A DNA stretch of 64,000 nt from Pseudomonadota bacterium (GTDB lineage: Bacteria > Pseudomonadota > Alphaproteobacteria > Rhizobiales > Hyphomicrobiaceae). How positions within the stretch are numbered: the stretch's first letter is position 1; every line of letters begins with the position of its first letter. The stretch covers positions 186,001-250,000 of the forward strand of contig JAFECE010000007.1 of assembly GCA_018242295.1 (NCBI GenBank). Direction: 5' to 3'. Made by a program: the position numbers and the translations under genes. Positions 2,120 to 25,604 of the stretch are shown here, piece after piece. Under the pieces are notes generated by a model that was not told where the DNA came from, made no database searches, and saw only the letters and a program-made list of their open reading frames with translations.

Positions 2120-3820
2120 CTAGTTGACCGTCCGGAAATTGCGTCGCGCGATGGGCTGCTCGATTTCGGGCTCGGCAGGATCGGTCCCGGGATCATCCGG
2201 CGCTCGCGGCGCGACGAAAACTTTCGCATCGGGCCGCGCGGCTGGCGCCCGATCGGAAGACGGCCGCTTGCTCACCGTAGCGGCATCGTCCGCCACGGGC
2301 AGAGGACCCGTAGCACCGTTGACGGCCGCTTCGGGGAAAACCCCGTTCGGCTTCGCGGTAACGGTGACGGGCTCGGCTTCCACAACATCGCTGTCGGACT
2401 GGCCAAGTTTGCTTTCGATGTCGTCGGCGCTGCTCGCTTTCACGGGCTCGGATGGGCCAGTATCCGGCGTTCCCGCCACCGGCGCGATAGCGATCAGCTC
2501 GTCGATTTTGTTCGCAAGAATGCTGCCCTTCCCGTCCGTCGTTTCAACGGGCACACGCCACTGGAAGGCATCGAGACGGCCATCGACCGGCGATGTCGGC
2601 TCCCAGTGATCGGAAATGACGCCGTCGGCCAGCCACACCGGATCGCGCGCCGCGTTCATCGCCCGCGCCAGCCATTCGCGCACACGGCCTTTCTCGCCGT
2701 TTTCGCCCGCTTCGATACGCGCCATCAGCATGGCGACGCGCTGCGTGAGACGGTCGGTCAGAAGCGGCTCGAGAGCACGCCGCGCCTCGTCGTACATTCG
2801 CGCCTCGGTCGCCGTCGAAGCAACGGCAATGGGGCTTTCGATCGAATGCGGATTGAGAGCCGCAAGCTGCCGCACGCGGTCGAGCCTGTCGCGCGTGCTG
2901 TCGCCGATACGGGCATGGGCATACGTCGAAGCGATATCCGGATGCGGAGATTTCGACCACGTCTTCTGCAGAACCTTCGCGGCCTTGGATGTATTGCCGC
3001 GCGACGCCAGAATGCGTCCCGCAACCACCGCCGCCGGAACGAGATCCGGCGCGAGCGCGTGCGCCTCGAGCGCCCAGGCGAGTGCCTTGTCCGGAGCGTC
3101 GTCTTCAGCCTCGACAGCTCTCGCCGTCAGCAAGACGGCACGCTTGCGCTCGGCGGCAGCCTTCGCAATGTGGCCGCTCTTTTTGGCGTGATCGAGCGTC
3201 GTCAGCGCGGCCCGCCAATCCTTCTGCTTGCACTGCTGCTCGAAGAGCGCCGTCGACGACCATCCGAGCTTCGGATTGGCTTTGAGCGCGCGCGCCGCGA
3301 ATTGCCGCGCCGCTTCGCCCGCGCCCTCGCGTTGCGCTTCAAGGAACAGGCCGCGAAGCCCGAGCTGCTCTGTTTCCGGAGAAGCCAGCATGGCTTCGTA
3401 GATGCGTCGTGCGGCAGCGCGATCGCCTGCAAGCTCGGCCGACTGCGCCCGCAGGAGATGCGTCAACGGCTCATGCGGCAGTGTCTTCCGCGCCTGCAGG
3501 GCGTAACGCGAGGCAAGCGCGCTGTCGCCCGCGCCGATCGCAATCAGGCCGCCGGAAAGTGCGTCGAGCCCCTTCTTCTCCCGTTGCCGCAACAAACGAT
3601 GGCCGATGGCAGCGGGACTGTTCCAGAGCGCCCGGAAGACCGACCACAGGAATACCAGCGTCGCGACCAGCGCCGCCAGGATAACGACCGCGCGGAAAAC
3701 CGATGTCTCTATATCGTAGCCCTGCCAGGCGATCTGCAGCGTCCCGGGACGGTCCGCGAGCCAGGCGAGGCCGGAGGCGATAAGGGCGATCGTAAGCAGA
3801 TAGACGACGAGGCGCACCAT
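2120..3820 (-). CDS. hemY: HemY-type inner membrane protein with TPR repeats
   Basis: A protein of 566 residues with two N-terminal membrane helices (about 2-22 and 38-62), then a long alpha-helical TPR-like region (about 80-400) and a low-complexity C-terminal tail rich in Pro, Ala and Asp. This is the HemY_N-plus-TPR form found beside hemC and hemD in proteobacteria. It is not the protoporphyrinogen oxidase also called HemY in Gram-positive bacteria. It is linked to the last steps of heme synthesis, but its biochemical role is unsettled. It is the last gene of the minus-strand hemC-hemD-mitofilin-hemY block, 20 bases after the mitofilin-like gene. Confidence 0.88.
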   Translation of the reverse strand: MVRLVVYLLTIALIASGLAWLADRPGTLQIAWQGYDIETSVFRAVVILAALVATLVFLWSVFRALWNSPAAIGHRLLRQREKKGLDALSGGLIAIGAGDSALASRYALQARKTLPHEPLTHLLRAQSAELAGDRAAARRIYEAMLASPETEQLGLRGLFLEAQREGAGEAARQFAARALKANPKLGWSSTALFEQQCKQKDWRAALTTLDHAKKSGHIAKAAAERKRAVLLTARAVEAEDDAPDKALAWALEAHALAPDLVPAAVVAGRILASRGNTSKAAKVLQKTWSKSPHPDIASTYAHARIGDSTRDRLDRVRQLAALNPHSIESPIAVASTATEARMYDEARRALEPLLTDRLTQRVAMLMARIEAGENGEKGRVREWLARAMNAARDPVWLADGVISDHWEPTSPVDGRLDAFQWRVPVETTDGKGSILANKIDELIAIAPVAGTPDTGPSEPVKASSADDIESKLGQSDSDVVEAEPVTVTAKPNGVFPEAAVNGATGPLPVADDAATVSKRPSSDRAPAARPDAKVFVAPRAPDDPGTDPAEPEIEQPIARRNFRTVN

Positions 3821-22633: not shown

Positions 22634-23254
22634 CTATGGCTTGCTGAAATCGACCTTCGGAACCTTCTGCTCTTCCGGCGAGACCTCGAACGTAGCCATT
22701 TCCTTCGCCTGCGGATAAAGCGCCATCTTCCACAGTCGTCCGGGAAAGGTCGAGATCTCGGTATTATACCGTCTTACGGCTTCAATGTAATCGCGGCGCG
22801 CGATAGCGATGCGGTTTTCCGTGCCGGCGAGTTCGCTTTGGAGCGCGAGGAAGTTCTGCCCCGACTTGATATCGGGATAGCGTTCGACCACTGCCATGAG
22901 CCGCCCAAGCGCGCCGCTCAGCGTCGCCTGCGCATCCTGAAATTTCTTCATCGCTTCCGGGTTCGTCAGAATGTCCGGAGGCAGCTGAATGTTCGTCGTC
23001 TGCTCGCGTGCCTTCGTGACCTCCGTCAGAACACTCTTCTCCTGATCGGCAAAGCCCTTCACCGAGGAAACGAGATTGGGAATGAGGTCGGAGCGGCGCT
23101 TGTATTGGCTCTGCACTTCGCTCCAGGCCGCCTTGGCTTGCTGCTCTTCCGTCGGGATGGCGTTGATGCCGCATCCCGCCACCGAAAGGCCCGCCATGAT
23201 GATCGCCAAGAACGCGATCGGACGAGCAATGAAAGTTCTTGTCACAGCGATCAT
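22634..23254 (-). CDS. LemA family lipoprotein
   Basis: A protein of 206 residues. The N-terminal helix ends in a lipobox SVAGC with the acylated Cys at residue 28, so it should be a lipoprotein. The LemA core follows: AWSEVQSQYKRRSDLIPNL, SVKGFADQEKSVLTEVTKAR, and ENRIAIARRDYIEAVRRYN with FPGRLW. LemA proteins are four-helix bundles of unknown function that often neighbour TPM/YgcG proteins or proteases. First gene of the minus-strand lemA-tpm-tpm unit; HtpX, a common LemA partner in other genomes, is elsewhere in this window. Confidence 0.92.
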   Translation of the reverse strand: MIAVTRTFIARPIAFLAIIMAGLSVAGCGINAIPTEEQQAKAAWSEVQSQYKRRSDLIPNLVSSVKGFADQEKSVLTEVTKAREQTTNIQLPPDILTNPEAMKKFQDAQATLSGALGRLMAVVERYPDIKSGQNFLALQSELAGTENRIAIARRDYIEAVRRYNTEISTFPGRLWKMALYPQAKEMATFEVSPEEQKVPKVDFSKP

Positions 23255-23577: not shown

Positions 23578-24321
23578 ATGCGAAATTTTGTGATCCGGGC
23601 TTCGCTTGCCGCTTCCGGAATTGTGCTTGCGGCGGCTCCGGCATTTTCCGCCAACGATCGCTGCAGCGAACGCGCCATTGCCTGCTACGAAAAGGTGCGA
23701 ACGCCTGACGTTTATGCCATCAAAACCCGTCAGGTCATCGTTCGCCCCGGCTGGCGTGAAGTTGTGACAACGCCGCCCGTCGTCAAACATGTCGCCGTTC
23801 CCGTCGTCACGCGCCCAGGCAGATGGCGAACGGTAACCGCGCCACCTGTCTACGCCACGAAATTCCAGCGCGTGCTCGTCAAAGAGGAAACCAGGCGCGT
23901 CGAGTTCATTCCAGCGGAGACCCGCCGAGTCGAGCAGACTGTCGTTGTCTCACCCGGCGGTACCGCCTGGGAACATACGCGCGGGCCTTCTGGGCGCGAA
24001 AGGCTTTGCAAGGTCCGAACGCCACCCGTCACGAAAACGATTGCGCGCGACGTCATCGTCAGTCCCGCGCGGCGCATTATTTATGTCACCCCGGCTGTCT
24101 ATGGCGTCGCCCCGCGTGCCGTTGTCATCAAGCCCGCCACCGCGACGCGCGTCTACGAACCGCCGGTTCACGGACTGATCAACCGATCGATTGTCGTTCG
24201 TCCGGCAACTGCCGAAGTCGTGGATCATCCGCCAGTCGTCGCCGCCCATCGCGAACGGGTCCTCCTGCGGGAAGGGCGAGACGTCTGGATCAATTCACGG
24301 TCGCGGCCGGAAGCCGATTGA
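23578..24321 (+). CDS. Secreted protein of eight 23-residue repeats
   Basis: A protein of 247 residues with a signal peptide (about 1-25, cut after AFSA). The mature part is almost wholly repeats that begin with a Thr/Glu/His-Pro-Pro-Val step: T42, T65, A88 and I111, then T148, T171, E194 and H217. Spacing is exactly 23 residues within each set of four. Each unit reads roughly PPV-x6-R-x-VVV-x-P-x3-R-x-V. Each set is headed by a Cys and KVRTP (C36 and C144); a third Cys is at 29. I recognise no family. The alternating hydrophobic pattern suggests beta strands. It is probably a surface or periplasmic structural protein. Confidence 0.75.
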   Translation: MRNFVIRASLAASGIVLAAAPAFSANDRCSERAIACYEKVRTPDVYAIKTRQVIVRPGWREVVTTPPVVKHVAVPVVTRPGRWRTVTAPPVYATKFQRVLVKEETRRVEFIPAETRRVEQTVVVSPGGTAWEHTRGPSGRERLCKVRTPPVTKTIARDVIVSPARRIIYVTPAVYGVAPRAVVIKPATATRVYEPPVHGLINRSIVVRPATAEVVDHPPVVAAHRERVLLREGRDVWINSRSRPEAD

Positions 24322-24557: not shown

Positions 24558-24857
24558 ATGGACGGTTGGAAAAAAGCTTTTAGCGGTGCAGTGGCTGCAC
24601 TTGCGGTAGCAGGCTTCGCGGCCGCCGCCGAAGCGGGGGGCAGACATGGCCATTTTGGCGGCCACTACGGTCACGGTCACTTCGCACATGGCGGCTATGG
24701 CGGCCATTGGCACGGACGCCGCGGCTGGGGCGGCTGGGGTTGGGGTCCGGCTATCGGATTCTACGGCCCCTATTATGATGATGCCTATTACGATGATTAT
24801 CCCTACGACGATTACTACTATTATCGCCGATATCATCGCCGCTATTATTACCACTAA
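24558..24857 (+). CDS. Small secreted Gly/His/Tyr-rich protein
   Basis: A protein of 99 residues with a signal peptide (about 1-26, cut after AAAEA). The mature part has a Gly-His segment (repeats such as GGHYGHGH and HGGYGGHWHGRR), a Gly-Trp segment, then a tail of Tyr and Asp (YYDDAYYDD) closing on Tyr, Arg and His. A GGAG ribosome site precedes the ATG. Such composition suits metal binding or a surface coat, but this is inference; similar small proteins are common and unnamed in Hyphomicrobiales. A promoter (24467) and a terminator (24866) bracket it as a single gene. Confidence 0.7.
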   Translation: MDGWKKAFSGAVAALAVAGFAAAAEAGGRHGHFGGHYGHGHFAHGGYGGHWHGRRGWGGWGWGPAIGFYGPYYDDAYYDDYPYDDYYYYRRYHRRYYYH

Positions 24858-25185: not shown

Positions 25186-25386
25186 TTACCACCAACGGCA
25201 GTGACGGTGTCCGTGTCTCCACCAGCAATGACGGTGATGGCGCCAATAAACATTCTGGCTCACCGACGATTGCCCGGAAATCTGCTTGAGCGCCTGCACA
25301 TCGCTGCTGACCGAAGCAGCGCTGGCAAATCCGGCTCCAAGAACCATCGCGGCGGCCGCGAAGGCGACACCCAACGTAGTCTTCAT
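25186..25386 (-). CDS. Small secreted His/Trp/Cys-rich protein
   Basis: A protein of 66 residues. The ATG at 25386 has AAGGAG ten bases upstream, which settles the start. A signal peptide (about 1-24, cut after FASA) leaves a mature peptide of about 42 residues. Its last 20 residues are nearly all Trp, Arg and His with two Cys in a HRHCWWRHGHRHC pattern. The His/Cys spacing suggests metal or heme binding, but no family role is known to me. It is convergent with the 24558 gene. Confidence 0.7.
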   Translation of the reverse strand: MKTTLGVAFAAAAMVLGAGFASAASVSSDVQALKQISGQSSVSQNVYWRHHRHCWWRHGHRHCRWW

Positions 25387-25604
25387 GAGGCTTCTCTCCT
25401 TGGTTACGAGCGTCGTTTTGACGCCAAGTGAGGAGATACCTATAGCGACGGGGTCGGGCTCGCCTTCCATACGCTTTCGTAAAGCGGGCAATGGCCGGCT
25501 TATATCGAATCGGAGTGTTGCCTAGACACGCCAAGATGATTCGCGGATATGGCGTTGCACAATCCGTGCGGATTCCAGGAGGTATTCTGAAATCTTGAAG
25601 ATAC

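Follow-up and report, generated by a model that had tools for sequence, protein, structure and literature searches.

A gene of the Hyphomicrobiaceae encodes a secreted protein that consists almost entirely of two blocks of short repeats. This locus raises the question of how such a protein folds and why its two blocks are of the same size. We addressed it by a computational analysis of a 64,000-nucleotide stretch of contig JAFECE010000007.1 (positions 186,001 to 250,000; here called the window), of the protein encoded in it (the window protein), and of its relatives.

Gene layout and repeat structure

The open reading frame is a real gene, and it is under purifying selection, with dN/dS values of 0.17 to 0.18 against three relatives. 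Autocorrelation of the mature protein gave mean BLOSUM62 scores of 0.70, 0.57 and 0.45 at lags of 106 (the distance between the blocks), 129 and 23 residues, respectively. No lag in any of 500 shuffled sequences exceeded 0.093; the repeats are thus not a product of chance. An initial annotation, made from the window sequence alone, had described two blocks of four units, and this layout was confirmed. Its spacing of exactly 23 residues was also correct, but the unit starts that it gave (residues 42, 65, 88 and 111, then 148, 171, 194 and 217) are one residue too low. Every unit opens with a proline, whereas the Pro-Val step assigned to all of them is found in some units only: PV dipeptides lie at residues 67, 75, 90, 150, 196 and 219, and other units start with PDV, PAE or PAV. 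The cysteines said to head the blocks, C36 and C144, were both found, and KVRTP follows shortly after each, at residues 39 and 145. The blocks, taken for copies of one module, are indeed homologous, since 24 columns are invariant between the block-1 and block-2 rows of our alignment A3. The tryptophans near the ends of the arms (W131 and W237 in the window protein) are kept in 140 and 137, respectively, of 149 two-block equal-arm proteins. The features of the locus are listed in Table 1.

Table 1. Features of the repeat gene and its neighbors, in window coordinates
Feature	Position	Strand	Remarks
lemA (Pfam LemA)	22634..23254	-	Divergent neighbor
Two-arm repeat protein gene, 247 aa	23578..24321	+	ORF from ATG to TGA; dN/dS ~0.18
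Signal peptide, residues 1-25 (AFSA)	23578..23652	+	By inspection of the sequence
C29	23662..23664	+	N-terminal-type extra Cys, 3-9 residues ahead of C36
C36	23683..23685	+	Heads arm 1, 7 residues ahead of the first unit proline; invariant in 15/15
Arm 1 (units start at residues 43, 66, 89 and 112; 23 residues each)	23704..23979	+	W131 near the end
Central linker, residues 135-148	23980..24021	+	Predicted ribbon hairpin tip
C144	24007-24009	+	Inside the central linker; invariant in 15/15
Arm 2 (units start at residues 149, 172, 195 and 218; 23 residues each)	24022..24297	+	W237 near the end
99-residue Gly/His/Tyr-rich protein	24558-24857	+	Secreted-looking
101-residue protein	25186-25491	-	Secreted-looking

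Distribution of the family and comparison with known models

Judged by its sequence, the window protein belongs to a wide proteobacterial family, whose features it carries: equal blocks of 23-residue units (4+4) and a cysteine at position −7 of the first unit. Relatives in named records come from two Hyphomicrobium metagenome-assembled genomes and from H. facile. A search with the single protein gave matches in 27 of 60 related genomes at E values up to 1, part of which were unrelated weak matches. A profile of 15 relatives matched 35 of 398 genomes sampled from the phylum, 89 of 397 from the order, 43 of 103 from the window's family and 24 of 161 from another family. With a second profile (A5), built from the seven repeat regions of six PG_binding_1 relatives and L036, matches were obtained in 38/274, 10/289 and 1/78 genomes of three class samples and in 8/12 genomes of one order; this profile recovered the window protein at an E value of 3.4e-23. 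Smaller searches found the family in 8/8 genomes of one genus and 3/5 of one family. The E limits were not uniform across these searches, and one genome per species was searched, so that the variation in unit number is variation between species.

The window protein matched none of the Pfam families at E values up to 10 and no NCBIfam model. MORN repeats also span 23 residues; neither MORN nor any other Pfam repeat model matched it up to E 10, and PG_binding_1 (PF01471) is lacking. Scans of the 15 relatives against Pfam and NCBIfam returned weak, unrelated matches only (three families in Pfam), and the Pfam matches of ten other relatives were all below the curated cutoffs. PG_binding_1 was found in all eight of the tested relatives with a C-terminal extension. 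One of these proteins, L046, gave NCBIfam matches at its C-terminal end, apart from one weak match elsewhere, and none reached the cutoff. The best hit of a PDB sequence search had an E value of 0.086, and the second profile gave none up to E 1. PHROGs yielded two weak matches with one member each, and plasmid sequences yielded one partial match for the window protein and none for L046. Thus, the earlier statement that no family with this plan is known agrees with the curated libraries searched, but the family itself is widespread in genomes. Among the matches listed from the open-licence PMC literature, no paper dealt with this family or with any equal-arm repeat protein.

Scans of viral contigs recovered one relative, L167 (IMGVR_UViG_2654588102_000002, positions 3010-3423, plus strand), a short single-block protein with CxxC pairs at both ends. 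In another relative (L018, genome G032), a long His/Gly-rich segment separates the signal peptide from the repeats.

Antiparallel co-variation and charge pairing between the arms

Mutual information between the arms was computed for every possible order of unit pairing. For proteins with two arms of four units (76 sequences, Neff 49), the antiparallel order, which pairs unit i with unit n+1−i, ranked first of 24 at all four cutoffs, and for 3+3 proteins (35 sequences, Neff 17), it ranked first of 6, again at all four cutoffs. The seven 2+2 sequences favored the parallel order. A smaller run with 50 and 29 sequences had been too shallow to rely on; because the present sets are enlargements of these, they do not constitute an independent repeat. 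The leading antiparallel position pairs were 8-8, 9-9 and 2-16 for 4+4 proteins and 9-9 and 8-8 for 3+3 proteins. In the position map of the 3+3 set, band means peaked at position sums (x+y) of 59 to 61, while short end bands came first when the fraction of high cells was considered. The antidiagonal seen in the position map speaks for direct strand pairing and led us to drop an arrangement with two face-to-face packed sheets.

Charge covariance located the register. It was most negative at x+y of 85 and 84 for the 4+4 set (−2.53 and −2.36; mean 0.22, standard deviation 0.48) and at 62, 61 and 60 for the 3+3 set, which is one unit away, as expected. Half of the 22 strongest anticorrelated pairs of the 4+4 set (11) fell at x+y of 81 to 87, a band that comprises 6.3% of the cells. 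At position 9, antiparallel partners carried opposite charges in 220 of 231 charged pairs, compared to 359 of 641 for other partners. In the three underlying sets (30, 42 and 27 sequences after thinning at 80% identity), the ratios of opposite to same charges were 73:0, 99:10 and 48:1 for antiparallel pairs and 170:41, 131:203 and 58:38 for the others. Since wrong pairings were also mostly opposite in the PG_binding_1-type set (170:41), the alphaproteobacterial 4+4 and 3+3 sets carry the test; the PG_binding_1-type set was chosen by locus number, with eight such proteins scanned for the domain. In the window protein, this register places R51 opposite E226.

Proteins with five or more units per arm showed the same preference at position 9 (13:2 for antiparallel pairs versus 88:104), and their charged 8-8 pairs were all of the same sign (0:6). 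In log-odds scores of nine long-armed proteins, the in-register antiparallel arrangement had the highest mean (−0.334, followed by −0.351), though it did not come first for each protein. A continuous ribbon predicts that short strands also pair one unit off, at a position sum of about 40. The pairs 18-20 (40:0 versus 46:56) and 21-19 (72:1 versus 185:151) match this prediction. A scan of 191 position pairs also returned some off-register pairs enriched for like charges, such as 21-15 (6:44).

Relatives with four blocks (eight after thinning) have mostly acidic residues at position 9 of blocks 1 and 2 and mostly basic residues in blocks 3 and 4. Blocks 1-2 (4:15) and 3-4 (0:10) are unlikely partners because of these like charges, and pairings 1-4/2-3 (12:0 and 13:0) and 1-3/2-4 (13:0 and 12:0) fit equally well. 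The short-strand pair 21-19 leans toward 1-4 (7:1) and 2-3 (5:0) over 1-3 (3:4) and 2-4 (3:1).

Predicted strands and cysteine positions

AF2 models were read at the level of secondary structure. The run with the full window protein and three relatives gave strands at low confidence (mean pLDDT 51, pTM 0.30), as did a second run on the second half with both blocks as alignment rows (44.9). The strands of the first model mirror each other about r+r'=276 (correlation 0.854, the best of 230 sums; next, 0.782 at 275), and 102 of 110 strand residues with a mirror position in the chain have strand there. The second run mirrored at the same sum (0.847), which corresponds to x+y=84, the register found by co-variation. 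As the first alignment comprised four sequences (the relatives being 71 to 89% identical to the window protein), this agreement is largely independent of the co-variation. Foldseek returned no PDB match to the first model at E values up to 0.001.

Cysteines were counted in 160 of the 161 proteins with equal arms; the remaining one, L046, is at a contig edge. All 160 have the leading cysteine, 159 of them at −7. An extra cysteine was found 3 to 9 residues ahead of it in 55 proteins or 21 to 31 residues past the last unit start in 98; seven have neither and none has both. When the C-terminal range was widened to 45 residues, three multi-Cys proteins (L021, L130 and L129) had an extra cysteine at both ends; L019, outside this count, and the single-block proteins also have cysteines at both ends. 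Eight two-block proteins without the central cysteine all keep the C-terminal one. In 56 proteins this cysteine is at +24, and in 42 it falls between +26 and +29. Paired with the leading cysteine at −7, the +24 site gives x+y=86 for 4+4 proteins, close to the register. The alternative sites fit termini in contact, with a putative disulfide bond where they join. Neither these positions nor the four-block charges are central to the proposal of a ribbon.

Pairing of the arms between two chains, as in a swapped dimer, would produce the same co-variation as pairing within a chain, and C144 could cross-link such chains. The central linker is short, however, the AF2 strands were symmetric about residues 136 to 140 in both runs, and alternative cysteines near either terminus fit one closed chain. 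Hence, a dimer of this kind seems unlikely to us, and we infer that the arms pair within one chain.

Equal unit numbers in the two arms

Units were counted with a dynamic-programming unit model, and the 179 ORFs that scored above 45 were retained as family members (6 of 99 ORFs from an earlier parse, L148, L150 to L152, L062 and L063, are missing from them). Repeat number ranged from 2+2 to 14+14 among the 161 ORFs with equal blocks: 4+4 in 90, as in the window protein, 3+3 in 42, 3+3+3+3 in 11, 2+2 in 10, 11+11, 9+9 and 5+5 in 2 each, and 14+14 and 7+7 in 1 each. The other 18 include five that are cut by contig ends (L293, L141, L136, L258 and L193), four with a single short block (L060, L154, L155 and L167) and one degenerate ORF (L016). 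Five can be read as equal by other means (L137, 7+7, L019, 6+6, and L145, 3+3, by eye; L018 and L232, both 4+4). Three are complete and clearly unequal (L020, L149 and L028, with arms of 12+9, 10+6 and 9+11 among them). We also compiled by hand the genus-level types with at least five units in each arm; of these ten types, seven were equal where 1.6 were expected (permutation p = 1.6e-4). Pairing of arm 1 with arm 2 would keep the unit numbers equal.

The equal arms speak against the fold implied by the initial annotation, a solenoid or stack of eight strand-turn units that each form their own β-hairpin. Such a fold would suit the regular 23-residue period and the DSSP strands of the AF2 model, which are broken near prolines. 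However, charge covariance within an arm is weak (−0.7 at most in the 4+4 set, against −2.5 at antidiagonals 84 and 85 between the arms), and the predicted strands mirror each other about the chain center. We therefore consider a solenoid improbable. The annotation remains right about a secreted repeat protein with β strands, seen here in a low-confidence model, but not about independent strand-turn elements, as the strongest co-variation is antiparallel and between the blocks. The paired ribbon may itself be coiled.

Equal arms could also stem from a recent duplication of the whole block in each lineage, as the homology of the blocks might suggest. Unit identity in L014 (0.41 and 0.42 within the arms, 0.43 between them) is in line with this, and L140, L137 and L019 likewise show no difference. 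Against it, units are more alike within an arm in L021, L130, L129, L020, L149, L142, L147, L028, L122 and L153; in L129, identity is 0.50 and 0.44 within the arms versus 0.38 between them. Moreover, the arms show two-unit gains or losses at different sites. Between the 9+9 and 11+11 proteins of one genus, each of the two arms has a gap of two units. In another genus, the gaps between L137 (7+7) and L142 (9+9) cover units 6-7 of arm 1 and units 3-4 of arm 2, which are exact antiparallel images. The arm-1 gap is ambiguous for L140 (5-6 or 6-7), and for L129 the images match only if the arm-1 gap takes a position that scores two identities fewer than the best one. The 9+11 protein belongs to the same genus as the 7+7 and 9+9 proteins. 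Within a genus, the two arms change in concert by separate events, and a recent duplication is very improbable. Genome G059 (locus L072) carries the paralogues L011 (4+4) and L028 (10+6) side by side; the arm-1 units of L028 are nearly identical, which suggests a recent expansion of this arm.

The protein might instead be a basic, disordered tether that attaches to wall polymers through its charge and lacks defined pairing. This reading would accord with the pI of the mature protein (10.8) and the low AF2 confidence, but it is hardly credible given the exact spacing, the purifying selection, the specific charge pairing and the existence of acidic relatives (L038, L058 and L061; pI 4.5 to 4.7).

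A proposed β-ribbon and its possible role as an envelope pin

The repeats, the equal arms and the antiparallel register are established by computation. Building on them, we propose that the mature protein is very probably a single antiparallel two-stranded β-ribbon with its hairpin at the center and its termini together. Arm 1 (units 1 to 4) would run out, the chain would turn at the linker (about residues 136 to 140), and arm 2 (units 5 to 8) would return, with unit i of arm 1 beside unit 5−i of arm 2 and residue r paired with r' at r+r' of about 276 to 277. The prolines at unit positions 1 and 15 would be nearly level on both strands, so that the ribbon would kink every 14 and 9 residues. 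The shape would be extended, and the W131/C144 hairpin would lie at the end opposite to the two termini. Fully extended, the 92 residues of an arm would measure about 30 nm (at 0.33 nm per residue), and kinks would shorten this length.

Such a ribbon could act in the cell envelope as a rigid pin of adjustable length, with the Trp/Cys hairpin tip presented at the far end. Anchorage would be at the end that carries the termini, through PG_binding_1 in relatives and perhaps through strong basic charge in the window protein, and the unit number would set the reach of the pin. An envelope location, beyond what the signal peptide indicates, and the pin role are drawn by analogy with the PG_binding_1 relatives and with variable-length surface rods, and we offer the role tentatively, as one possible use. 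As an overall explanation, the antiparallel β-ribbon appears likely; the pin role within it is less likely than not. Several putative ribbons side by side could form a tube or rod that crosses the periplasm, its length set by the unit number.

The PG_binding_1 relatives (for instance, L046, L037 and L061) resemble the window protein in the leading cysteine, the two arms of four 23-residue units and the central linker. They differ from it by a C-terminal PG_binding_1 domain and a cysteine past the last unit; the window protein lacks both and has C29. Most tandem-repeat proteins form solenoids or closed rings or resemble beads on a string. Here, the partner of each repeat apparently lies in the opposite half of the chain, and a change in copy number would then have to be offset at a distant site in the gene. 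There is a reasonable chance that the family represents an entirely new class among repeat proteins. In such an intramolecular β-zipper, the two tandem-repeat arms would evolve separately, yet cross-strand charge pairs would hold them in register, and their copy numbers would have to change together. SMC proteins offer a parallel, as the two halves of one chain pair antiparallel in their coiled-coil arms and must match in length; these arms are α-helical, in contrast to the 23-residue β repeats of the window protein. Lysenin and similar pore-forming proteins contain long two-stranded antiparallel β-hairpins, but Foldseek found no significant match between them and the AF2 model (best E, 0.032; TM-score, 0.06). 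To our knowledge, no equal-arm rule exists for SasG. SasG consists of successive G5 and E domains and would share with the present family an elongated, repetitive build and a variable length at the cell surface (PMC4458895). Periscope proteins project an N-terminal ligand-binding domain on tandem arrays of folded domains; their length also varies by repeat number, which may set reach, but the analogy is functional only, since their domains fold individually whereas the 23-residue units considered here pair between arms, as judged by co-variation (PMC8201768).

These results provide a first foothold in the structure of a secreted family that is widespread and whose repeats had no model in the libraries searched. 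Equal arms at 2, 3, 4, 5, 7, 9, 11 and 14 units constitute a natural test of co-evolution in repeat arrays and may offer a simple design rule for extended β structures.

Genomic neighborhood

The repeat gene is transcribed divergently from lemA, which is followed by two TPM-domain genes. In the 60-genome set, lemA lies beside the repeat gene (within about 1.5 kb) in 13 of 21 family-bearing genomes, namely, ten of Hyphomicrobium and three others; purH, a transporter gene and ybaK are near the repeat gene in genome G052. The site of the gene had been called an accessory patch. The gene is indeed patchy within the genus (present in 9 of 21 other species), but it is divergent from lemA in all ten Hyphomicrobium genomes that bear it. 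In 39 regions, among the 22 largest clusters listed, no partner was shared beyond the lemA/purH site except for kinase-like ORFs, which occur near the repeat gene in five regions, all outside Hyphomicrobium. As no shared partner was found elsewhere, the context gives no function. One Hyphomicrobium copy at the lemA site (L016/L077, genome G019) is shortened and degenerate and lacks the central cysteine. The two small secreted-looking proteins encoded beyond the repeat gene have no Pfam match. The 99-residue protein just downstream was found, among the loci compared, only in the window's own genome, and the 101-residue protein occupies the same place in close Hyphomicrobium relatives.
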